The notes under the pieces were generated by a model. The model saw only the letters and a list, made by a program, of their open reading frames with translations. It had not been told where the DNA came from and searched no databases. Source: Myxococcaceae bacterium (GTDB lineage Bacteria; Myxococcota; Myxococcia; Myxococcales; Myxococcaceae). From it: DNA of 57,264 nucleotides. Below are positions 38,414-49,882 of the stretch, in pieces. Where the stretch lies: assembly GCA_016926755.1 (NCBI GenBank), contig JAFGNZ010000118.1, positions 1-57,264 on the forward strand. The letters run 5' to 3'. The position numbers were made by a program, and so were the translations under genes. Every line of letters begins with the position of its first letter. The stretch's first letter is position 1.

Positions 38414-39520
38414 ATGCCGCGCAGCTTCGCCATCACCACGTCTGTTCCCTCGGTCCCGCTCAATGGCTCGGGCCAGGGTGAGTTCACCTTCACCGTCTCC
38501 AATGCCCTGGGCCGGCCCGTCCGCGCGCGGGCGGTGATTGAACCCGAGGGACAGCTCCAGCGCGGCTGGGTGATGATCAGCGGGGAGGCCGAGCGGGAGC
38601 TCGCCCTGGATGGCACCCAGAACTATGCGGTGAAGGTCTCCACCCCGCCCGGAGTCCCCGAGGGGACCTATTCGTTCCGCCTGGTCGTGGTGGATGTCGC
38701 AAACCCGGATGAGGAGTTCGCCATCGGACCCTCGGTGGCCTTCCAGGTCCAACGCCCCGCCGCGCCGCCTCGCAAGCGCTTCCCGATCTGGATTCCCCTC
38801 TCGGCGGTCGCGGTCCTCCTCCTGGGCATCGTCACCACGGCGCTCCTGCTGCGCGGTGATGACTCGGGCGCCGGGGGCTCGGGAGCCACGCCCACCGTAT
38901 CCCTGAGCTTCGACGGCCAGCGCTCCTATGTCGATCTGGGCCAGCCCCGTGCCCTCGACTTCACCGGCAACGTCACGATCGAGGCCTGGATCCGGCCGAG
39001 CACCACGGGCGGCTTCCACGACATCCTGGCCCATGGCTACACCCTGCAGCCCTTCGGTGAGCTCTACCTCCGCATCTTCGCCGGGACCTATCAGGTCGGC
39101 TCCTGGAATGGCGTGGACCACGGCGTGAGCGCTCGCATGCCTTCGGAGGACGCGGGGCAGTGGGTGCACCTGGCCGGCGTTTATGACGGGACGCACTGGC
39201 GCCTCTACCGCAACGGGGAGGAGGTGGCCTCCAGGCCCGACCCGGTCGGCGTCGTTTCCGTCAACGCGCCCTGGGCCATCGGCGCCCGGGGCGGTGGCAC
39301 GGAGCGCTTCTTCCACGGGGACATCGCCGAGGTGCGCCTCTGGAGCGTCGCGCGCACCCCAGCGCAGCTCCGAGAGGACATGCGCCGCGCCCCCAGGGAG
39401 GACACGGAGGGCCTCGTCGGCTCCTGGCCCTTGAGCGAGGGCCGAGGCGCCATCGCCGGGGACCGCTCCCGGAGCCAGGCGCACGGCGTCCTCCGCGGGG
39501 CGGACTGGAGCACCCCCTGA
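38414..39520 (+). CDS. Membrane protein with C-terminal LamG (concanavalin-like) domain
   Basis: About 368 residues from the ATG at 38414, with GGGGGTG upstream; an ATG at 38387 would add 9 residues. The N-terminal 110 residues are an Ig-like beta domain (SVPLNGSGQGEFTFTVSNALG, GVPEGTYSFRLVVVD). A Pro/Arg linker and one helix (IWIPLSAVAVLLLGIVTTAL) follow. The LamG domain comes last: SLSFDGQRSYVDLGQPRALDFTG, VTIEAWIRP, WVHLAGVYDGTHWRLYRNGE and FFHGDIAEVRLWSVARTPAQL. The Ig domain would be cytosolic and the LamG domain periplasmic, an unusual topology, since there is no signal peptide. LamG domains bind glycans or proteins. The stop codon lies three bases from that of the convergent subtilisin-like gene. 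Confidence 0.83.
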   Translation: MPRSFAITTSVPSVPLNGSGQGEFTFTVSNALGRPVRARAVIEPEGQLQRGWVMISGEAERELALDGTQNYAVKVSTPPGVPEGTYSFRLVVVDVANPDEEFAIGPSVAFQVQRPAAPPRKRFPIWIPLSAVAVLLLGIVTTALLLRGDDSGAGGSGATPTVSLSFDGQRSYVDLGQPRALDFTGNVTIEAWIRPSTTGGFHDILAHGYTLQPFGELYLRIFAGTYQVGSWNGVDHGVSARMPSEDAGQWVHLAGVYDGTHWRLYRNGEEVASRPDPVGVVSVNAPWAIGARGGGTERFFHGDIAEVRLWSVARTPAQLREDMRRAPREDTEGLVGSWPLSEGRGAIAGDRSRSQAHGVLRGADWSTP

Positions 39521-39523
39521 GCT

Positions 39524-41746
39524 CTACTGCAGGAGCAGCTCGCTGAAGGTGGAGTACGAGATCCCCGCCTCCTCGCCGCGCATCGTGAGGGCGGCGTTCT
39601 CGATGGGGAACCAGGCCTTGTCCAGGGGGACGTTCGTCACCCTCACCTCGTCACCCGCGGAGAGCTCGGACTGCCCCGAGAGCTCGAGCAGCTCCGAGAG
39701 GTCTACCTCATACTTGCCGTTCACCCGCAGCGTCGGATCATACAGGCTCCGCGACGAGTACTCGCTGTCGATGCTGATGTAGAGCGTCGCGGAGGGGGCC
39801 AGGCTCTCCGGGTTGTCCACCTGCATCAGGCAGAGGGTGCAGGGGTTCTTGCTCGGCTGCGGGTTCGTCCAGGGCTGGAGCGGGATGCCGTAGTACTGGC
39901 GGAGCGGACAGACGGTCTCGTCGTAGCTCCAGCTCAGGGCCCTCAGCGCCGCATGCTGACACACGGGCAGCACCGGGGGCAGGTCGACGTCGAGCAGGGA
40001 GCCGTCCACCGTCAGGGTGAGCTTCGAGTCGATCTCGGCCAGCTCGCTCGCGTCCAGCTGCGGCAGCGAGTCCGCCCGCGAGGGACAATCATCCAACAGC
40101 GTGGGGTCCGGGCAGTTTCCAGCACCTGCCTCGCAGGCCTTCATCAGGGCCTGGCAGAGCGAGACGCGATGGATGCTGCGGCGCGGGTCCGTGGCGCTCA
40201 AGGGGCAAGGGTCTCCGCCCAGGCAGAAGTCCGCGAGCTCCTCCAGGTCGACCGAGCCCTGGCGCACCAGCGCCATCACTTCGGGCCCGGACAGCTCGGG
40301 CCGGTAGCCCCAGAGGGTGGAGACAACCCCGGACACCACCGCCGCGGACACCGAGGATCCCGTGAGGATGTCCGTGGGCACGACGCCGCCATCCGCGCCG
40401 ACATCGGACGCCACCGCGTGCGCTCCGGGCGCCACCAGGCGTGGGCGCCCTCCTGGCCGGGTGCTCGCCAGTGGCCGATAGTCTCCCCGCACGCCGCCCA
40501 CCGCGAAGACCAGCGGCTGGTACACATCCAGCCCGGCGGGAGGAAAGAGGTGATACGTCACGGTCCCCGGATAGCCCGGGGCCTCCAGGGACGCACACTG
40601 CAGGGGCCCTGGCGCCGGCTTCTGCTCCCACCCCGCGGGGAACATGGGGCCCTTCACCTCATCCGGCCCGCCCGGATCATTCCCCGCCGCCGCGATGACC
40701 ACGGCCCCATGGCACACGGCATGGGTGATGGCGGCGTGGACGGCGCGCGCCGGCGCCGGCAGCTGCTCCACCTGGTCGCCCGGGTAGGGCCCGCCGTAGC
40801 GCCCGTCCCAGGCGAGGCTGAGGCTGACGACCATGCGAGGCTGCTGCGCGCCAGGCGTCTCCGGGGTGCTGCTCCCGAGGTTGTAGGAGCGCCAGTCGCT
40901 CACCGCGGAGTGGATGGCTCGCGCCAGCTGGGTCTGCTCCCCGAAGTAGCCCCCAAGCTCCGGATCCCTCCGGGTGGGCGTCACCTGCGGGAGCGCCAGG
41001 TGGTTGGCCACCTGGGAAATACAGGCCGCGCTCCCATCCGGGCAACCCAGCTCGCGGATGATGCGCCCCATCGCGTACCCGTGGCCGAGCCGATCCTCCA
41101 CCGCCTCGCCATCGCTGTAGCTCCGAGGGGAGGAGTCCACCACCGCGACGCGCACCTGCTCGGGCGGGGAGTTCGCGTCCACCGGGAGGGTCTCCAGCCG
41201 CCCCGTCTGCGCGTGGAAGTCCGTGTGCAGCGTCTGCCACGCGGCCTCGGTGGTGGCGCTCGTGCCCAGGGGCGCCACCGCGCGGCGCTCGGGATCCACC
41301 CGCTCCACCTTATGGGCGAGCGCCGTCTTCAACGTCTCCACCGCCTCCAGCGACGGGGGGGCGCTCCCCGCCGGCTCCCAGTCGTAGGCACAGAAGCGCG
41401 CGAGCCCTGGGGGAACGAGCCACTCCCCGGCGGATTCGGCGAACAGCTGCGAGCCCACCCATCGGCCCTCGTTTGCCTTCGGCCCCGGCGGGCACTCCTG
41501 GGATTCCTCCGTAAGGACCGCGATCCATCGCTCGGCCGAGTACGCCTTCGCCAACGTGCTCGCGGGAGACACGGGGACGCAGTCGCCCCCCTCCGTGGGG
41601 CACGGCGGCGCGCCCGCGTCCAAGGAGAACCCCTGCCGCGCCAGCTCCGGTCTCCCCTCCACTTCCAGGAGCGCAGAGCCGGACGGCGTACAGGCAGCGA
41701 CGATGATTGCCAGTGTGACTGTAACTAGAGGGCGTGAGGATTTCAT
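39524..41746 (-). CDS. Subtilisin-like (S8) serine peptidase lipoprotein
   Basis: A 740-residue lipoprotein with lipobox IVAAC (cysteine 19). The subtilase triad is intact: D204 in VRVAVVDSSP, H222 in RLGHGYAMG, and S465 in LTGSSVSAAVVSG, with oxyanion N356 in AAAGND. The N-terminal 190 residues are a propeptide-like region. The C-terminal 250 residues hold a cysteine-rich region (a DFCLGGDPCP motif, CQALMKACEAGAG) and a beta domain, together with a CTLCLMQVD motif. It would act at the outer face of a membrane. It follows the CHAT gene on the same strand after 25 bases, so it is probably the last gene of the sigma/anti-sigma/CHAT operon. Confidence 0.88.
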   Translation of the reverse strand: MKSSRPLVTVTLAIIVAACTPSGSALLEVEGRPELARQGFSLDAGAPPCPTEGGDCVPVSPASTLAKAYSAERWIAVLTEESQECPPGPKANEGRWVGSQLFAESAGEWLVPPGLARFCAYDWEPAGSAPPSLEAVETLKTALAHKVERVDPERRAVAPLGTSATTEAAWQTLHTDFHAQTGRLETLPVDANSPPEQVRVAVVDSSPRSYSDGEAVEDRLGHGYAMGRIIRELGCPDGSAACISQVANHLALPQVTPTRRDPELGGYFGEQTQLARAIHSAVSDWRSYNLGSSTPETPGAQQPRMVVSLSLAWDGRYGGPYPGDQVEQLPAPARAVHAAITHAVCHGAVVIAAAGNDPGGPDEVKGPMFPAGWEQKPAPGPLQCASLEAPGYPGTVTYHLFPPAGLDVYQPLVFAVGGVRGDYRPLASTRPGGRPRLVAPGAHAVASDVGADGGVVPTDILTGSSVSAAVVSGVVSTLWGYRPELSGPEVMALVRQGSVDLEELADFCLGGDPCPLSATDPRRSIHRVSLCQALMKACEAGAGNCPDPTLLDDCPSRADSLPQLDASELAEIDSKLTLTVDGSLLDVDLPPVLPVCQHAALRALSWSYDETVCPLRQYYGIPLQPWTNPQPSKNPCTLCLMQVDNPESLAPSATLYISIDSEYSSRSLYDPTLRVNGKYEVDLSELLELSGQSELSAGDEVRVTNVPLDKAWFPIENAALTMRGEEAGISYSTFSELLLQ

Positions 41747-41771
41747 GTCGGTGTCTCCCTGGTGTCAGTGA

Positions 41772-44519
41772 TTACGGAACGAGTGAGCGGAAGGCGGCCC
41801 AGTCCGCATCCGGCCGGCGGGCGCGAAGCTCGAGCTGGGCCTGGCGCAGCGCCTCCGGCAGCTCGGGAGCGGCGCCCGCACCGCCATGGCGGTAGAGGGC
41901 CCGCATCAACTCCATGGCGTGCGCGTCGTCCACCACGCGCCAGGCGGCCACTCCGCCCCGCGCGCCCGCCGCCAGGAAGGCCTGCGCCAGCCCCATGCCC
42001 TCCACGGGGGACTCCTGCGAGGCGCGGGCCGTCTCGCACCCCGAGAGCACCACCCACGAGGGCACCCGGCGCAGGGCCAGCACGTCGCCCACCGTCAGCC
42101 GCCCTTCGTAGAGGGGCATCGAGCTCTCCCACCCGCCGAGCCCGGCGAAGCGGCCATGCCCCGCGTAGTGGAAGAGCTCCGCGCGCTCGAGGGCGGCGCG
42201 CACCGCGGTGCCGCTCGCCGCGGGGCCCTCCTGAACCTGGACACGCCAGCCCTCCCGCAGCGCCTCGCCGACGCGCCGCGCCTCGTCACGTGCCAGGGGC
42301 AGGTTGCCCTCGGGGTCCGCGACGATGAGCGCGGTGCGCTCCTGGGCCTCGGCGGGCGCGGGCGGCGGCCTCACCAGGTCCAGCGCATAGGCCACCGGGC
42401 GCCCCGCGACGAGCGCGTCTCCCTCGAAGGGCAGCGCGTGGAAGTCCACCGCGCGCAGCACTCCATAGGGAATGAAGATGAGGCGCCTGGCCGCGGCGAT
42501 CTCCTGGCGGAACGGCTCCAGCAGGGCGGCGGCCAGCGTGGCCGGCGGCGCGTCCGGAGCGACAGGCTCGAGGAGGCGGGCCTTCACGGCGCCGGCGTCC
42601 GCCGCGAACCCGATCCAGCCCCGCGGCGCCGGGTAGTAGACGAGCCACAGCTCTCCAGGAGCAGGGCGGGAGAGCGCGCCCCGCGTGGAGCGCCCCGCCC
42701 GCGCCGGCTCCAGCAGGGAGAAGGCCTCCTCCAGGATGCTCCGCAGCCGCTGCTCCCGCAGCCGTCGGGCCTGGCGGATCTCCGCGAGCCGGTTCACGGG
42801 CAGCCGCCAGTCCTGCGCGGCCTCGCCGTCCAGCGCCTCTCGCTCCTTGCGATAGGCGGAGATGGCGGCATCCCACCGGGCGCGCTCCGCGGGCGGCAGG
42901 TGGGACAACCTGTCTGACAGCCGGACAGCTTCGAGCACTCGCCCGCGCGCGCGACGGGCCACCTCCAGCGCCTCCTCGAGCTGCCCCGCCCCCACCGCGA
43001 GCGCCACGTACGCGCGGCTGCCCCGCTCGCGCTCGCGCAGGAAGCCATGCCGGCCCTCCATGAGCGGCACGCGCAGCACCTCGCCGTCCAGGAGGGCCTC
43101 GGCCTCGGCATACGCCGCGAGCGCCGCGCGCACCTCCCCGAGCTGCTCGGCCGCCCGGGCCCGACCGAAGGCCGCGCGCCAGCGGGCCTCGGGTGATGCC
43201 GAGGCCTCGGCCAGCTCCGCCAACCTCGCGAAGAGCTGCTGCGCCTGGCGCGCACGGCCCGCCGCCAGGTGGATGCGCCCCTCGAGATCCAACCACCACA
43301 GGGCCAGGCGTGTCCCCGGCTCGGGGCGCACGCGGCGAGCCTCCCGCAACCGCGCCCCCGCCGCCTCGGAGCGCCCCGCCTGCAGCTCCGCCAGCGCCAG
43401 GTTCACGAGGACGTTGGCCTCGTCGTCGGGGCTGGCACACTCCCCCCGGTAGAGCGCGAGCGCCTCCTCCAGGGAGGGCACCGGCTCGCCCTGGGGCGTG
43501 CCGCCGGCCTCCCGCGCCAGCAGCAGTCCCCAGCCGATGTTGGTGAGCAGGTCCGCCCGCTCGCACGCGGAGGCCTCCGCGCCCAGGTCCTCCCGCAAGG
43601 CCCGCAGCAGCGCCAGGGACTCGGCGTCGCGGCCGAGCGACTGGAGCGTCGTCGCCAGGACCTGCCGCACCGCCCGGTGCAGGCGATCGATGCCCAGCCG
43701 CTCCGCGAGCTGCTCCGCCTGGGTGAAGCGCTGCAGCGCGGAGCCGATGTCCCCTGATTCGATGGCCAGCAGCCCCTGGTAGTAGGGGAGCTGTGCGCTG
43801 CCCTCGGGGTAGTCCCGCTCCAGGGGGCCCAGCGCCTCGAGCGCCGCGCGCGCCTCGGTGAAGCGGCGCCCGTGGTGGATCAGCGTGTAGGCGAGCACCA
43901 GTGAGTCATTCGCCTCATCCGAGCGCCGCCCCAGACCGCGGTGGAGCACCAGGGCCTCCCGCAGGAGCGCTACCGCCTCCTCGGAGCGGCCCAGGGACAG
44001 CTCGAGGCGTGCCAGCAGGCTCCTGGCGCGGGCACGCCCCGCACCCTCGAGTCCCGGGGCCTCCTCGCGCAACAGGCGCGCGGCCTCTTCGCCTTGCCCC
44101 TCCGCCCGCAGCGCCAGCGCACGCCGCAGGAGCGGCACCTGCTCCGCCTCCCGCACCGGCAGCCGCCACACGCTCACGCCCTGGGGCAGCGCCGCCTCCA
44201 GCACCACCTCGGTGGCTCCGGCCGGCACCGCGAACGCGCACGCGCGCCCGCCACGCACGGCCCGCTCCTCCACCGGGAGCCGGCTGCCCCCGGCCGAGAC
44301 GCTCAGCGCCACCCCCTCCGGGAGCTCCACCCAGAGCCGCAGGCGCCGATCCTCTGGGAGTTCACACACCGGCCCGCCCGAGACGGCCGCGCAGCCAGCG
44401 AACCCGACCTGCAGGGGCGGAGGCGGCGTGGTGACCAGAGCGGGCGCCTTGCCCCCGCACTTGCAGGCTCCGCTGGCGAGCACGGCCCCCAGCGCCAGCA
44501 AGAGCGAGGCGCGCCTCAC
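41772..44519 (-). CDS. TPR-CHAT caspase-like protease, putative lipoprotein
   Basis: A 915-residue protein read from a GTG at 44519 that overlaps the stop codon of the anti-sigma-like gene. The N-terminus is a signal peptide ending near LASGACKCGG, a possible (atypical) lipobox. After a beta domain come TPR/helical repeats (about 130-560: ALALRAEGQGEEAARLLREE, LLAIESGDIGSALQRFTQA and others). The C-terminal CHAT domain (about 620-915) contains FHYAGHG with the catalytic His at about 788, and VVLSGCETA with the Cys at about 828. CHAT proteases are relatives of caspases. Location appears to be the envelope, which is unusual for this fold. Substrates might include the anti-sigma-like protein; that is inference. 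Confidence 0.9.
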   Translation of the reverse strand: MRRASLLLALGAVLASGACKCGGKAPALVTTPPPPLQVGFAGCAAVSGGPVCELPEDRRLRLWVELPEGVALSVSAGGSRLPVEERAVRGGRACAFAVPAGATEVVLEAALPQGVSVWRLPVREAEQVPLLRRALALRAEGQGEEAARLLREEAPGLEGAGRARARSLLARLELSLGRSEEAVALLREALVLHRGLGRRSDEANDSLVLAYTLIHHGRRFTEARAALEALGPLERDYPEGSAQLPYYQGLLAIESGDIGSALQRFTQAEQLAERLGIDRLHRAVRQVLATTLQSLGRDAESLALLRALREDLGAEASACERADLLTNIGWGLLLAREAGGTPQGEPVPSLEEALALYRGECASPDDEANVLVNLALAELQAGRSEAAGARLREARRVRPEPGTRLALWWLDLEGRIHLAAGRARQAQQLFARLAELAEASASPEARWRAAFGRARAAEQLGEVRAALAAYAEAEALLDGEVLRVPLMEGRHGFLRERERGSRAYVALAVGAGQLEEALEVARRARGRVLEAVRLSDRLSHLPPAERARWDAAISAYRKEREALDGEAAQDWRLPVNRLAEIRQARRLREQRLRSILEEAFSLLEPARAGRSTRGALSRPAPGELWLVYYPAPRGWIGFAADAGAVKARLLEPVAPDAPPATLAAALLEPFRQEIAAARRLIFIPYGVLRAVDFHALPFEGDALVAGRPVAYALDLVRPPPAPAEAQERTALIVADPEGNLPLARDEARRVGEALREGWRVQVQEGPAASGTAVRAALERAELFHYAGHGRFAGLGGWESSMPLYEGRLTVGDVLALRRVPSWVVLSGCETARASQESPVEGMGLAQAFLAAGARGGVAAWRVVDDAHAMELMRALYRHGGAGAAPELPEALRQAQLELRARRPDADWAAFRSLVP

Positions 44520-45313
44520 GGCCGGTCCAGGAGCAGGAACCTCCGGGTGAGCAGGCGCCACGAGCCCGCCTCTGGCGCGCGGCCCTGCTCCAACAAGGGG
44601 AGCACCTCGCCCGGCTCCTCCGGGAGCGTGCCGGGACGACCCACGGCAATGGCCAGGGTCCACTCGCCCGGGGGAACGGAGAGCAGCGCCTCCACCGGAC
44701 CGCGGATGCGCACCGCGCCCTCGGGGGAGCGCTCCATGGGCGGCGTCCAGGCCCGCGCCTCTCCCGGGCGCAAGAGGAAGGCACGCACCTCCACCGGCCC
44801 CTCCACCGCCTGCTCCGGGCGCAGCACCAGCTCCAGTAGGGAGCCCGGCCCCAGCCGCGGCACCTCCTGCTCCGGCGCCCCCGAACGCACACCCTGCTCG
44901 CTGGAGAAGGACAAGCCATAGCCCGGCAGGGGCGGCCCCCCGCGCGGGAACACGACAAAGAGGACCGCGGCCGCCGCGGCCAGGGCCGCCACCGCCGGAG
45001 CAACCACCCGCAGGCGACGCCGGGACGCGAGGGGGATGACACGAGCAGGGGGCGGCTCTTCCCTGGCAGGCTCCGCCGCGAGCTCCCGCTCCAACCGCGC
45101 GGCAATCCGCTCCCGCGCCGCCTCCTCCAACGGCCTGAACGCCTCGTACGCCTCCCCCGCCGCCGGCTCCTGTTGCGCCAGCCGCTCCAGCTCCCGCCGA
45201 TCGGCCTCGGAGAGCGTCCCCTCGGTGAGAGACTCCCAGCGCTCGTCGCGCGCCTCTGCCTGTCGACGCTCGCGCGCCACGCGGCCCAGCTCCAGCAGAA
45301 GTTTGTCGCTCAT
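44516..45313 (-). CDS. Membrane anti-sigma-factor-like protein
   Basis: A 265-residue single-pass protein. The cytosolic N-terminus (about 1-100) is helical and highly charged (LTEGTLSEADRRELERLAQQ resembles the anti-sigma zinc-finger-like fold without the His/Cys ligands). One helix (VVAPAVAALAAAAAVLFVVF, 103-122) and a periplasmic beta domain of about 140 residues follow (LLELVLRPEQAVEGPVEVRA, LLSVPPGEWTLAIAVG). It overlaps the sigma gene upstream by ATGA and the CHAT gene downstream by GTGA, so the three are one coupled unit. The position directly after the sigma gene is that of anti-sigma factors. Confidence 0.78.
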   Translation of the reverse strand: MSDKLLLELGRVARERRQAEARDERWESLTEGTLSEADRRELERLAQQEPAAGEAYEAFRPLEEAARERIAARLERELAAEPAREEPPPARVIPLASRRRLRVVAPAVAALAAAAAVLFVVFPRGGPPLPGYGLSFSSEQGVRSGAPEQEVPRLGPGSLLELVLRPEQAVEGPVEVRAFLLRPGEARAWTPPMERSPEGAVRIRGPVEALLSVPPGEWTLAIAVGRPGTLPEEPGEVLPLLEQGRAPEAGSWRLLTRRFLLLDRP

Positions 45314-45969
45314 GGGGTGGCACTCACTTTGGGTATTTGCGGCGAGCCCTGGAAATCTGACGAGAGCTCCGCGCCGAGCCGGCGACTCAGCTTCCCCAGG
45401 CGGCTCTGCCAGGCGTACACGGCATCCCGGCTCATCCCCGACTGCTCGCAGACCTCGGCCACGGACCGCTGCTGGATGAAGAGCTGCTCGAAGAGGGAGA
45501 GGCCCAGCGGACTCAGCTCCTCGCGCAGCCGGTCCAGCAGGGCCTCCAGCATCTGCTGGGAGGCCACCCGCAGCTCCGCGCTCGCGTCCACCGCGGGCCC
45601 GTCGAGCTCCTCCAGGAGCGTCGGATCCTCCGTCCAGGGGCTGCGGCGCGTGGTGCGGAGGATCGACGCCACCTGCCGCTCGGCGAGGAACCCGACGAAG
45701 TTGATCAGCGACAGCCCCCGCTGGGGCTCCCAGGCGCGCAGCGCCTTGCCTCTCTCGGCGAAGAGCGAGACGAACACCTCCTGCGTCAGGTCCTCCACCT
45801 CCTGGCGGATGTTCCGGCCGCTCGCGGAGGCCGCCCGGCGCAGCAGGGCGCGCGCCACGCGGGCCTGGATGACGGGGGTGAGGACATCCACCAGGGACCG
45901 CAGCGCGTCGCGCTCCTGGGCGAGCGCTCGCTCCACCAGCTCCCGGGTAGCCTCCATCTCGCGACTCAT
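45310..45969 (-). CDS. RNA polymerase sigma factor, ECF/sigma-70 family
   Basis: A 219-residue sigma factor. Region 2 is visible as IRQEVEDLTQEVFVSLFAERGKALRAWEPQRG followed by SLINFVGFLAERQVASILRTTRR. Region 4 is SLFEQLFIQQRSVAEVCEQSGMSRDAVYAWQSRLGKLSRRL, a helix-turn-helix. The start is uncertain: ATG 45969 or 45957, both with weak ribosome sites. A perfect TTGACA lies upstream on this strand but lacks a good -10 box. It is the first gene of the sigma/anti-sigma/CHAT/subtilase operon and divergent from the lipoprotein gene at 46122. Confidence 0.88.
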   Translation of the reverse strand: MSREMEATRELVERALAQERDALRSLVDVLTPVIQARVARALLRRAASASGRNIRQEVEDLTQEVFVSLFAERGKALRAWEPQRGLSLINFVGFLAERQVASILRTTRRSPWTEDPTLLEELDGPAVDASAELRVASQQMLEALLDRLREELSPLGLSLFEQLFIQQRSVAEVCEQSGMSRDAVYAWQSRLGKLSRRLGAELSSDFQGSPQIPKVSATP

Positions 45970-46121
45970 GAAAGTCAGGCAACTGTAGAGGTACCGAGAA
46001 AAAATCTCCAGGCGTGTCAAAGCCAGAAATCCCGCTGCGTATCCCCGTTCAAGCCGCTCGGCGCCGAGCTGGCGCAACGGAAACGACGCAAGCGAGGGCC
46101 GCCTGGCCCGAGGAGTCCGAC

Positions 46122-47069
46122 ATGAAGCTGAAGAGCCTGTTGGGAGTGCTGGTGATGCTGTCTTCGGTGGTGGCCTGTGGGCCGGACGCGGCGCTCGAGG
46201 CCGAGGCGGCGCTGGCCACGCGGGCGAGCGCCGTACAGGGCGACATCGACGACGACGGCATTCCGGATCTGGAGGACAACTGCCCGGGGCGGCCGAACAC
46301 GGAGCAGTTCGACAAGGACGGTGATGGCAAGGGGGATGCGTGCGACGTCGTGCTCATCACCTACAGCCCGAAGCAGGAGGGAATCAAGGTGTCGGTGGGG
46401 CCGAGCCGCTATGAGCGCCTGGTGCCGGTGGCGCTGTTGCTGAACAACACGAACGAGGCCGTGAGCTTCACCGCCACCAGCAACCAGCCGTGGCTGCTGG
46501 TGCCGCAGAGCCATCAGGTGGGGCCGGACAGCCGGTTCAACCTGCTGGCGCAGCTCAACCCGGCCGGGCTGCCGAATGGACTCCACAAGGCCACGGTGAG
46601 CCTCACCCGGGGTTTGATCGTCTTGAACGTGGACATCTACATCGACATCTTCTTCCCGCAGCAGGAGACCTGTGACTGGGTGGTGAGCCTGCACAAGGCC
46701 AAGGTCACCGAGGGCCAGGGCGTCTTCGAGGGCAAGCTCGAGGTGCAGATCATCGGCAAGGCCAACGGCGATCAGGCGGTGTATCCGCGCTCGGGAGACT
46801 GGGACCAGATCGCGGAAGGGCAGACGGTGATGCTGGAGAAGGAGATCACCCGCATCACCCTGCCCGATGATGGCTCCACCGTCTCCATCCCCGTGGACCT
46901 CGTGGTGGACGAGGATGACACCGGGTTGCTGGGCGCCAATGACACCGGCAATGGCACCGTGACGGTGAATATGTCGTGCGACACCACCGTGGACTACGCC
47001 TCGAAGACGATCAGCCTGGGCAGCCCCGGCAAGGTGTGGGTGGAGGTGAAGGCCGAAAAGGAGCTGTAG
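46122..47069 (+). CDS. Lipoprotein with calcium-binding thrombospondin type 3 repeat
   Basis: A 315-residue lipoprotein starting at an ATG with AGGAG 7 bases upstream; lipobox VVACG. Residues 40-75 hold a thrombospondin type 3 repeat (DIDDDGIPDLEDNCPGRPNT, then FDKDGDGKGDACD), which binds calcium. The remainder is a two-domain beta-sandwich of Ig-like strands (VPVALLLNNTNEAVSFTATS; VDLVVDEDDTGLLGANDTGNGT). It is divergent from the sigma-factor gene (152 bases between starts), so it may be a target of that sigma factor. A strong hairpin follows its stop codon. Confidence 0.82.
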   Translation: MKLKSLLGVLVMLSSVVACGPDAALEAEAALATRASAVQGDIDDDGIPDLEDNCPGRPNTEQFDKDGDGKGDACDVVLITYSPKQEGIKVSVGPSRYERLVPVALLLNNTNEAVSFTATSNQPWLLVPQSHQVGPDSRFNLLAQLNPAGLPNGLHKATVSLTRGLIVLNVDIYIDIFFPQQETCDWVVSLHKAKVTEGQGVFEGKLEVQIIGKANGDQAVYPRSGDWDQIAEGQTVMLEKEITRITLPDDGSTVSIPVDLVVDEDDTGLLGANDTGNGTVTVNMSCDTTVDYASKTISLGSPGKVWVEVKAEKEL

Positions 47070-47085
47070 TCGAGCGGCGCGGCAG

Positions 47086-47114
47086 GCCCACCCGGCGGAT
47101 TGTGCCGGGTGGGC
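47086..47114 (+). terminator. GC-rich hairpin downstream of the lipoprotein gene
   Basis: GCCCACCCGGC (47086-47096) and GCCGGGTGGGC (47104-47114) form a perfect 11-base stem with a 7-base loop, 16 bases after the stop codon at 47069. There is no T-tract, but the stem is strong and lies immediately before the promoter of the next gene. It is a candidate terminator. Confidence 0.6.
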
Positions 47115-47130
47115 GCTTGCCCTTGCGCCG

Positions 47131-47152: not shown

Positions 47153-49882
47153 ATGGCCCAGAGCGAAGAGCTGAGCGCAGCAGATCTCCAACGGCTGGCC
47201 CACGCCGAGGCGCCGGACCTGGCCGAGGCCGTCACCGCCTTCCAGTCCCAGCCGGAGAAGCCCCTCGACAAGCCGCTGCCCGAGGGCGCCATCGACTTCC
47301 AGGGCCTCAAGCACCTGCTGGCGCAGGCCCAGGCCCGCCGCAGCGCCAGGAGCCGCCGCGCCGCCTCTCGCGAGGCCTGGCAGCGCTTCCTCGCCCAGAA
47401 GGACGTGCCGCTGCCGCCCCGCTTCGCCCTGGCGGACCTGCTGGTGGCCCTCTACGAGCGCAACACCGACGCCAGCCGCGCCGTGCTCTTCGAGCTGGTG
47501 CGCGGCGCGGAGCTGAACTTCGGCCTGTGGGGCGGGCTCAAGCGCATCTACAAGCGGGCCGAGCAGCGCCATGACGCGGAGATGTTCGGCGTGCTCGCCT
47601 GGCGCTTCGACACCGAGCGCCACGGCACCCGCAGCCGCGAAGTTTCGCTGGGCACCCTCACCTACCTGCGCAGCCGCGCGTGGCGCTACCTGCGGCAGCT
47701 GGGCGCCGCCGTGCCGGAGCTCTACCCCCAGTTCGCCGTCGAGGTGCTGCGCCACTACACCGGCGACACGCGCTGGCGGGAGCTGTGGGTGGCGATGCAC
47801 ATCCTCGCCCACGGCACCGGCAAGTACCACGCCCAGTCCTTCAGCACGGACGTGCCCGCGGACCTGGTGAAGCACCGCGCGTACCCGGACGCGTGGACGC
47901 GCTCGCCGGACGCGCTCATGCGCCTGCTGGACACCTGCCAGTCGGATCCGGCCGCGCGCTTCGCCATCCAGGGCCTGCGCAAGGACTTCCCCGAGGTGCT
48001 GCGCAGCCAGCTGACGCCCGCGTGGCTGGAGCGGCTGGCGCGCAGGCCGCTCGCCAGCGCCCACGAGTTCCTCGTGGAGACGCTGCAGGGCTCGCCCGAG
48101 TTCCACCAGGGCAAGCTGCGCGGGCTGGGGCTCCACGAGGCGGTGCTCGCCCTGCTGGTGTCCCCCAGCCCCAAGGCGCGCACCTACGCCATCGAGTACG
48201 CGCGGGCGCACGCGCAGGACCTGGCCGCCGAGCGGCTGGCGGAGCTGGTCTCCAGCGCCTCGGCGGACACCGTGGCCTTCGCCGCCGCGGTGCTGGAGAA
48301 GCGCAACCCGCGGGAGCTGGGCGCGGACTTCCTCGGGCGGCTGCTGGCCTCCAAGGCCACGAACGCCTTCGCCGCCAAGGCGCTGGCGCAGGCCTTCGAT
48401 CGCGCGGAGCTCACCCACCGCTTCCTGATCGACATGTTCTACGGCGCGCGGGAGCAGCTCGAGTGGGTGAAGGGCTACATCGACTCGAAGTACGCCGCCG
48501 CCGAGCTGCCCGCCTCCTTTTATAAGGAGCTGCTGGCGGACGCGCGGCACGGCAAGTTCCCCACGTACTACGCCAGCCCCGTGGAGCAGTACGCCCTCAA
48601 GGCGCTGGGCGCGTACACGCCGGCGGCTATCGGCCCGGACTGGCTGCTGGACAACGCCCTCCACCCGCGGCTGGGCACCCAGGTGCAGAAGTGGCTCATG
48701 CGCGCTGAAGCGCTGCCGGGCCTGGACGTGGAGCGGGTGAAGGGGCTGGTGTTCAACGCGAAGTACCGCGAGGTGGCGCTGGCGCTGCTGGGCAACCGCA
48801 AGCTGTTCAGCGCGCGGCAGCTCACCGTGCCCTGGCTGCTGGCCCTGGCGCGGCGCGCGGATCCGGCGCTGCACGAGTTCGCCCACCGCTACCTGCTGGA
48901 GAACCTCTCGCCGGCGGACTTCAGTGAGTCCGAGGATGCGGGGGCGGGCCTGGAGCGCCTCTTCGAGCTGGCCCTGGGAGCGAAGCAGCCCGCGCCCGTG
49001 CGCCAGTTCGCGCAGACGTACCTGCGGTGCCACCACCCCGTCATCGGCCCGGAGCAGCCCGAGTCCAAGTCCTACCAGCTCAAGCCGAAGGCCCCGCGCA
49101 AGGCGTACACCGCTGAGCGGCTGTGGCCCGCCCTCTTCGACGCGCGCGACGACGTGCGGCGCTTCGCCCTGGCCATCGCCCGCGCGGAGCTGCGCGCCTG
49201 GGGCTATCACACCCGCGTGTACGAGCTGGCCGAGGCGGACTCCAAGGAGGTCCGCAACCTGGCGTACGACGCGCTGCTGCAGGCCGGGGAGGCCGGCGCG
49301 GACGAGCGCCACACGCTCAAGCCCGAGGAGCTGGACGCGGTGAAGGTGTTCACCCTCACCGAGAGCACCCGGCGCAGCACGCGCGAGGTGGCGGTGGAGC
49401 TGATCCGCCGGCACTACGCGCGGCTGGGCGGCGCCGAGCGGCTGGCGTGGCTGATGGAGAGCGCGGACCGGGAGGTGGGCCTGTTCGCCGTGCGCCTGCT
49501 CTGGGAGAAGCACCGCCCCATGCACCTACCCGAGGGGTGGAAGCCCGCGGGGGCTGCCCAGGCCCTGGCCGTGGGCGGCACGGAGCGCTTCGCCAACGTG
49601 GAGGCGCTGCGCGCGTTCCTGCGCCGCATGCTCTTCGGCCTGCCGCCGGGCCGCTCGAAGGAGGGGCGTGAGGGCATGGTGCAGCGGCGGCTGTCGGCGA
49701 GCACGGCCAAGCGCCGCGTCATCGAGCTGGTGAGGGATTTGGGGCTGGAGGATCAGGCCTTCGCGCGCGTGGTGTCACCGGTGCTCAACGAGTTCACCGG
49801 CTCGCTGGCCAAGGGAGAGTGGCAGAGCTGCCTGGCCTCGCTGGTGAGGCTGCGCACGGCACACCCCGGCGTCACCTTGTAA
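47153..49882 (+). CDS. Large helical-repeat (HEAT-like) protein
   Basis: A 909-residue soluble protein without signal peptide. It is almost entirely alpha-helical, with many LxxL/RLAEL-type helical pairs (LSRQLTPAWLERLARRPLAS-like segments and VRRFALAIARAELRAWGYHT), suggesting an armadillo/HEAT-type superhelix. The N-terminal 130 residues include ALADLLVALYERNTDASRAV and a Lys/Arg-rich part. No enzymatic motif is seen. From memory, proteins of this sort occur with WD40/HEAT giants and MoxR-vWA ATPases in myxobacteria; I cannot confirm it. It is followed after 89 bases by the Uma2 gene, and a WD40-HEAT gene stands 3.6 kb further on, on the same strand. Confidence 0.7.
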   Translation: MAQSEELSAADLQRLAHAEAPDLAEAVTAFQSQPEKPLDKPLPEGAIDFQGLKHLLAQAQARRSARSRRAASREAWQRFLAQKDVPLPPRFALADLLVALYERNTDASRAVLFELVRGAELNFGLWGGLKRIYKRAEQRHDAEMFGVLAWRFDTERHGTRSREVSLGTLTYLRSRAWRYLRQLGAAVPELYPQFAVEVLRHYTGDTRWRELWVAMHILAHGTGKYHAQSFSTDVPADLVKHRAYPDAWTRSPDALMRLLDTCQSDPAARFAIQGLRKDFPEVLRSQLTPAWLERLARRPLASAHEFLVETLQGSPEFHQGKLRGLGLHEAVLALLVSPSPKARTYAIEYARAHAQDLAAERLAELVSSASADTVAFAAAVLEKRNPRELGADFLGRLLASKATNAFAAKALAQAFDRAELTHRFLIDMFYGAREQLEWVKGYIDSKYAAAELPASFYKELLADARHGKFPTYYASPVEQYALKALGAYTPAAIGPDWLLDNALHPRLGTQVQKWLMRAEALPGLDVERVKGLVFNAKYREVALALLGNRKLFSARQLTVPWLLALARRADPALHEFAHRYLLENLSPADFSESEDAGAGLERLFELALGAKQPAPVRQFAQTYLRCHHPVIGPEQPESKSYQLKPKAPRKAYTAERLWPALFDARDDVRRFALAIARAELRAWGYHTRVYELAEADSKEVRNLAYDALLQAGEAGADERHTLKPEELDAVKVFTLTESTRRSTREVAVELIRRHYARLGGAERLAWLMESADREVGLFAVRLLWEKHRPMHLPEGWKPAGAAQALAVGGTERFANVEALRAFLRRMLFGLPPGRSKEGREGMVQRRLSASTAKRRVIELVRDLGLEDQAFARVVSPVLNEFTGSLAKGEWQSCLASLVRLRTAHPGVTL

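Follow-up and report, generated by a model that had tools for sequence, protein, structure and literature searches.

Can a caspase-like protease outside the cytoplasm control a bacterial sigma factor? This question was raised by a four-gene cassette in a Myxococcaceae bacterium (GCA_016926755.1, contig JAFGNZ010000118.1, positions 1-57,264 of the forward strand); this whole stretch of 57,264 nt is referred to here as the window. The cassette lies on the minus strand and encodes, in the order 5' to 3', an extracytoplasmic function (ECF)-like sigma factor, a membrane anti-sigma-like protein, a TPR-CHAT protein and a subtilase. Judged from sequence, the chances are about even that it is a split, four-gene relative of the DdvS/DdvA switch of Myxococcus xanthus, with the CHAT protein as the probable site-1 protease.

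Four open reading frames (ORFs), of which the first three overlap by 4 bp at each junction and the last follows after 25 bp, had been described in a first-pass annotation of this DNA, and all of this was borne out by the ORF coordinates (Table 1). The overlaps were located at the sigma/anti-sigma and anti-sigma/CHAT junctions, and the gap separated the CHAT and subtilase genes.

Products of the four genes

The identification of the first gene as a sigma gene stood in so far as ECF-like sigma matches were obtained, but the sigma factor is divergent and the curated sigma models hit it below their cut-offs. Sigma70_r2 was matched weakly (E = 0.0038) and TIGR02937 (sigma70-ECF) was matched over residues 40-191 at 3.5e-8; of the Pfam families, HTH_28 scored above its cut-off. 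Regions 2 and 4 aligned clearly over 20 rows, which comprised the five close loci and 15 further sequences.

The second protein was predicted to consist of a helical cytoplasmic part (residues 1-80), one transmembrane (TM) helix at about residues 104-122, which is preceded by arginines, and a C-terminal beta-sandwich (residues 130-265). The TM helix was present in 13 of 14 aligned anti-sigma rows, the remaining row being cut short, and in a VIA search the outer domain proved to be beta-sandwich-like (best Z 9.9). No family was matched in a Pfam scan of the protein, and the zinc motif HxxxCxxC was absent from it and from its four orthologues. The best sequence evidence for the putative anti-sigma assignment is a distant homologue, L165 (6.5e-12 over profile positions 58-242), which carries HLVRCREC, in agreement with HxxxCxxC, at the corresponding position of the alignment; zf-HC2 was matched there with an E value of 0.0012, below the curated cut-off. 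Since this homologue keeps the zinc motif, the window protein would have descended from a form with the motif and lost it. The earlier label of anti-sigma-like was retained on topology, position and the distant homologue, but not on a direct family match. Position, topology and the helical N-terminus make it quite likely that the protein is an anti-sigma factor.

In the third protein, Pfam CHAT was matched over residues 660-910 (9.9e-31; model positions 5-284 of 289), and TPR was also matched. H788 and C828 were invariant in the five close orthologues and across 11 homologue rows; the histidine lies in an (F/L)HxxGH stretch and the cysteine in SGCE, SACE or TSCE. Coverage of the domain model was 2-285 in L153 and less in L163 (48-265) and L160 (82-266). 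An N-terminal export signal or membrane anchor was predicted from sequence in all 11 CHAT homologues: the LASGAC of the window protein is lipobox-like and non-canonical, a good lipobox was present in L153, L161 and L163, and the N-termini of L158 and L160 were more anchor-like. An active-site comparison from the TPR-CHAT structure model was dropped, as the pLDDT of the CHAT domain was mostly 20-50 and the fold matches were mainly to TPR.

The subtilase was matched by Pfam Peptidase_S8 (2.1e-8). Asp204, His222, Asn356 (oxyanion) and Ser465 were unchanged across nine rows, and D204, H222 and S465 were invariant in the five close orthologues; a good lipobox was found in the window protein and its orthologues. 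The catalytic residues of both proteases had been reported as intact in the first-pass annotation, and the homologue alignments, in which they were invariant, agreed.

Given these export signals and the TM topology of the anti-sigma-like protein, the CHAT protein, the subtilase and the C-terminal domain of the anti-sigma are predicted to share one side of the inner membrane. The earlier concern that an exported CHAT protein might never meet the anti-sigma falls away, because the C-terminal domain of the anti-sigma is itself predicted to lie outside the cytoplasm.

Table 1. Coordinates of the cassette genes and associated features (window positions unless a locus is named)
Feature	Position	Strand	Basis or remark
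ECF-like sigma factor, 219 aa, first gene	45310..45969	-	Weak Pfam/TIGR matches, orthologues, region 2 and 4 alignment
Membrane anti-sigma-like protein, 265 aa	44516..45313	-	Topology, position, distant homologue L165
Exported TPR-CHAT (caspase-like) protein, 915 aa, GTG start; H788, C828	41772..44519	-	Pfam, alignments, N-terminus
Predicted TPR-CHAT signal peptide, residues about 1-21	44456..44519	-	Kept in five orthologues; hydrophobic N-terminus in 11/11 homologues
Subtilase (S8) lipoprotein, 740 aa; D204, H222, N356, S465; lipobox VAAC at 16-19	39524..41746	-	Pfam, alignments
Candidate autoregulatory promoter TGGA-N17-TCTA (weak)	45986..46010	-	TGGA and TCTA common to aligned upstream regions of five orthologues
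Block missing from congener G002 (cassette and divergent lipoprotein 46122-47069)	39500..47126	.	Flanking genes abut in L127
Fused DdvS/DdvA-like pairs	L017 12871-13407/9935-12871; L018 6292-6789/3353-6295		Own contigs C317, C91

Conservation and accessory character of the unit

The anti-sigma protein was used as the query against 95 other genomes of the family, with up to 27 candidates scored per genome; orthologues with segment identities of 73-79% were found in four (G087, G101, G106 and G112, which belong to a single further genus), borderline matches in G060 and G095 had no cassette with them, and within this limit on candidates none of the six sampled congeners had the gene. Gene content and gene order in the four genomes matched those of the window, both 4-bp overlaps included, and the flanking genes differed from those of the window. 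Identity to the window proteins was 78-80% for sigma, 76-79% for anti-sigma, 78-79% for CHAT and 64-67% for the subtilase. The ratios of non-synonymous to synonymous substitution rates (dN/dS, NG86) between the window and the orthologues were 0.40-0.45, 0.24-0.27, 0.30-0.33 and 0.52-0.54, respectively. Because order and overlaps recur in four genomes and dN/dS lies between 0.24 and 0.54, the gene set is more than a chance arrangement.

The genes on either side of the block in the window abut each other in a congener, G002 (locus L127, 6782-7891 and 7918-10644); the block is therefore absent there, and the four-gene unit behaves as an accessory cassette. A search of 59 genomes, the window's own and relatives, with the whole TPR-CHAT protein returned the window alone, because no genome later found to carry the cassette was among the relatives sampled. 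A scan of genome contigs with the CHAT alignment gave a single locus, in Pyxidicoccus caerfyrddinensis CA032A, which is probably the same genome as G087. Plasmid searches yielded CHAT-domain matches only, and a Streptomyces match among them had no annotated sigma gene beside it.

Wider conservation was assessed with a profile of the five sigma factors, which was compared to 195 Myxococcota genomes (E ≤ 1e-9, at most 15 candidates scored per genome); neighbouring genes were identified by applying profiles of the four genes to plain ORFs in 14 of the regions concerned. The profile detected 21 sigma loci in 12 of the 195 genomes. The full sigma, anti-sigma, CHAT and subtilase order was present at eight of these loci: the five close ones and L153, L156 and L158, which are from other families. 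The CHAT matches in these three distant sets had E values of 3e-125, 1.8e-149 and 2e-82, respectively (the subtilase of L158 is cut by a contig end), and their CHAT identity to the window was 29-37%; L156 also retained the 4-bp sigma/anti-sigma overlap. CHAT was found at 11 of the 21 loci in total. At L160 the CHAT, sigma and anti-sigma genes occurred in a different order, at L161 a divergent CHAT accompanied sigma and anti-sigma, and at L163 CHAT followed sigma and a TM protein preceded it. The initial view of the genes as one coupled unit was thus upheld across Myxococcota, and the recurrence of the four-gene order in other genomes disposes of the possibility that the operon is not conserved as a unit.

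Several neighbouring genes were also recorded. The lipoprotein gene at 46122-47069, divergent from the cassette, encodes thrombospondin type-3 repeats and is missing together with the cassette in G002. Its promoter had been named as one to examine in a search for the sigma regulon; as the gene is not adjacent to the cassette in any of the four close orthologues, nothing supports its membership of that regulon. A different gene is divergent from sigma at the orthologous loci L035 (10604-11743) and L036 (10602-11762), and its product is trypsin-like in L035 on a sub-threshold Pfam match. Beside the insertion point, window positions 47153-49882 encode a protein that matches the PADLOC candidate HEAT-ARM_XIII (1.9e-299) and is present in seven of seven sampled genomes of the genus. 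Elsewhere in the window, 28412-29539 matches the candidate phage-defence family PDC-M17A (PADLOC, 1.6e-154).

Relation to DdvA and other known systems

The first-pass annotation had pointed to the TPR-CHAT protease of type III-E CRISPR (the Craspase system) as a parallel to the cassette. DdvS/DdvA of M. xanthus (PDB 8rlz, 8rot, 8rw5; Bernal-Bernal 2018, 2024) proved to be closer, since its TPR-CHAT region is part of the membrane anti-sigma itself. The profile of window-type CHAT proteins had DdvA as its nearest solved relative (1.2e-9), followed by CHAT-domain chains such as 8d9f and 7x8a (4e-4), which we take to be Csx29 entries. The two systems share an ECF sigma factor, a single-pass membrane anti-sigma and a TPR-CHAT region beyond the membrane, as predicted here from sequence, and in both the sigma gene is directly upstream of the anti-sigma gene, with a 4-bp overlap in the five close loci and L156. 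DdvA is one polypeptide, whereas anti-sigma and TPR-CHAT are separate ORFs in the window and at the other split-type loci. DdvA also has a zinc HxxxCxxC anti-sigma domain, unlike the window protein, the motif being found in the distant homologue L165. In the cassette, Pfam coverage indicates a full-length CHAT domain, and there is an additional lipoprotein subtilase.

Fused proteins of the DdvA type were abundant. The window's own genome contains at least two pairs of an ECF sigma factor and a fused zf-HC2-TM-TPR-CHAT protein (L017 and L018), with overlapping or abutting genes. Matches to this fused family were obtained in 67 of the 195 Myxococcota genomes, with several copies in most (four candidates scored per genome). 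The family aligned with PDB 8rot/8rw5 over 976 positions (E = 1.9e-232); 8rlz is named anti-sigma factor DdvA, and the title of 8rw5 gives DdvA as a dimeric transmembrane anti-sigma factor. The fused family is DdvA. Upstream DNA was checked for 70 of the fused matches listed, and seven were left out for too little upstream DNA (<600 bp in six). Among the matches checked, a co-directional ECF sigma gene lay directly upstream in 48 of 48 with the zinc motif and in none of 15 from which the motif was absent; the fused loci are mutually related, so that these counts are not independent events. In eight fused copies with a sigma gene the zinc motif sits behind a longer linker.

Some further copies were noted. 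In the window's genome, L019 and L022 lack the zinc domain and have no adjacent sigma gene in the gene calls, and at L104 and L105, fused-family loci that also lack the zinc domain, a sigma-like ORF lies upstream on the opposite strand. At L020 (1198-6739, own contig C121) a CHAT protein of 1268 aa is encoded with proteins of 349 aa and 230 aa, with 4-bp overlaps; the start of the 230-aa protein resembles a zinc-less anti-sigma domain (hhalign probability 92).

The abstract of a 2024 paper on DdvA is said to propose caspase-like self-cleavage in trans before RseP acts, and to call the active site incomplete. DdvA is nevertheless a working anti-sigma factor, and the CHAT protein of the cassette might likewise be a sensor or binding module, with its catalysis unused in sigma control. 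CHAT coverage in three fused-family proteins was 109-270 or less, with no CHAT match in L022, compared to 5-284 of 289 in the cassette protein, and the cassette histidine and cysteine were invariant in 11 of 11 homologues; a purely sensory role is accordingly very improbable. According to PMC4374960, DdvS is active once DdvA has been inactivated, and the signal is described there as unknown.

According to PMC10028731, Csx29 of Craspase cuts Csx30, an inhibitor of an ECF-like sigma factor (CASP-sigma). Craspase and the cassette are alike in that a TPR-CHAT protease, a sigma-factor inhibitor and an ECF-like sigma factor are encoded together. Csx29 works with Cas7-11 and target RNA, whereas the cassette CHAT protein is predicted to be exported and its export signal is kept. 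The cassette had been described as lacking CRISPR; in keeping with this, a PADLOC scan of 14 proteins from the window gave no match to a Cas protein.

The actinobacterial ECF54 loci resemble the cassette in that a subtilase and a CHAT protein are encoded next to an ECF sigma factor. The review PMC8999054 describes carboxypeptidase, subtilase and CHAT genes at these loci and an anti-sigma as lacking; in contrast, the eight full loci found here have a membrane anti-sigma-like gene between sigma and CHAT. An association of ECF sigma, CHAT and subtilase was therefore already on record. No description of a four-gene unit that includes a membrane anti-sigma was found in the literature searched, which did not extend to the main DdvA and ECF-classification papers.

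In RseA/DegS/RseP and RsiW/PrsW, regulated proteolysis begins with a cut in the membrane anti-sigma on its outer side. The candidate site-1 protease of the cassette would differ from these in being a CHAT/caspase-type cysteine protease, and not DegS or PrsW.

A putative proteolytic switch and its alternatives

If the cassette is a relative of DdvS/DdvA, the sigma factor would be held by the cytoplasmic helical part of the single-pass membrane anti-sigma. The exported TPR-CHAT protein would sense a signal through its TPR and N-terminal beta domain and cut the anti-sigma beta-sandwich outside the inner membrane; a housekeeping intramembrane protease of the RseP type and cytoplasmic proteases would then finish the process and free the sigma factor, which would probably drive its own operon. 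The lipoprotein subtilase would be a second extracytoplasmic protease, placed upstream of CHAT, downstream of it, or among the outputs. Sigma binding, cleavage, the order of the proteases and the regulon are the parts of this scheme that we infer; most likely, CHAT alone or CHAT and the subtilase together would be the site-1 protease for the anti-sigma. The TGGA-N17-TCTA pattern occurred twice in the window compared to 0.46 expected, and two occurrences were reached in 9 of 100 shuffles; a regulon cannot be defined from so weak a promoter motif.

Several observations weigh against this scheme. No CHAT gene was found beside sigma and anti-sigma at L157 and L159, CHAT was not detected at L162, L164 and L165, where sigma occurs with a subtilase, and the sigma genes of L155 and of L008 (genome G011) had neither CHAT nor any other recognised partner. 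L152 (sigma and anti-sigma, no CHAT found) and L154 (no recognised partners) are, like L161, loci that end at contig ends close to the sigma gene. The cytoplasmic part of the anti-sigma-like protein had no clear similarity to the zinc anti-sigma domain in a profile comparison (12.9, with shuffles up to 16.9), and the result with an enlarged alignment was marginal (14.9 compared to 14.9 for the best shuffle; 15.9 compared to 12.8 when L165 was omitted). The window and fused CHAT proteins aligned over the CHAT domain alone, at 29% identity. Structure models were weak, with a mean pLDDT of 68.6 for the anti-sigma-like protein and 58.7 for TPR-CHAT.

The loci in which sigma is paired with a subtilase also bear on two other explanations. 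In the first, both exported proteases would be outputs of an autoregulated sigma/anti-sigma pair that drives secreted hydrolases, which would serve in predation, in competition or in repair of the envelope. The targets of an ECF sigma factor often lie in its own operon, both proteases are predicted to be exported, and the subtilase evolves fastest by dN/dS, with L162, L164 and L165 adding sigma-subtilase pairs without detected CHAT. The constraint on CHAT is, however, similar to that on the anti-sigma; in the DdvA family CHAT and anti-sigma form a single protein, and the copies that lack the zinc domain also lack a neighbouring sigma gene in the same direction. This explanation is reasonable, though rather unlikely.

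In the second, the proteases would form a cascade: one of them, either CHAT or the subtilase, would activate the other, and the anti-sigma would be cut by the second protease and not by CHAT. Both proteases occur together with intact catalytic residues in eight loci, a subtilase without detected CHAT stands beside the same type of sigma factor at L162, L164 and L165, and CHAT and subtilase are reported beside ECF54 as well (PMC8999054). Such a cascade is unlikely.

The three sigma-subtilase loci are from genome G136 (L162, 4459-5964; L164, 4552-6834; L165, 2854-4800), and L162 holds two of the 21 sigma genes. The subtilase was recognised by Pfam at L164 and by motifs in the translation at L165. 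The pairing of sigma with subtilase may be older than that of sigma with CHAT.

The proposal that CHAT is the site-1 protease of a DdvS/DdvA-like switch can also be taken further, although this extension is on balance doubtful. The cassette would then be a two-protease switch outside the inner membrane, with the free, full-length CHAT protein as the site-1 protease for a dedicated membrane anti-sigma and the subtilase as an upstream activator or a second cutter. The split form and the fused DdvA form would then be alternative arrangements of a single ancient theme in myxobacteria, control of an anti-sigma by CHAT, from which CRISPR Craspase would have branched off in the cytoplasm.

The underlying idea is partly known from DdvA; what differs here is the split four-gene version, with a separate CHAT protein, a zinc-less anti-sigma and an added subtilase. 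This layout eases testing, because the protease and its presumed substrate are two distinct proteins, the CHAT domain seems to be whole, and loci with and without CHAT provide natural controls. In the fused family, the pairing of zinc domain and sigma gene offers a ready set of DdvA-like switches for the finding of signals. These results suggest that gene expression in bacteria can be switched on by a caspase-like protease that acts outside the cytoplasm. If CHAT does cut the anti-sigma, the use of caspase-type proteases to activate genes from there would be a general bacterial strategy, one not peculiar to DdvA or CRISPR.

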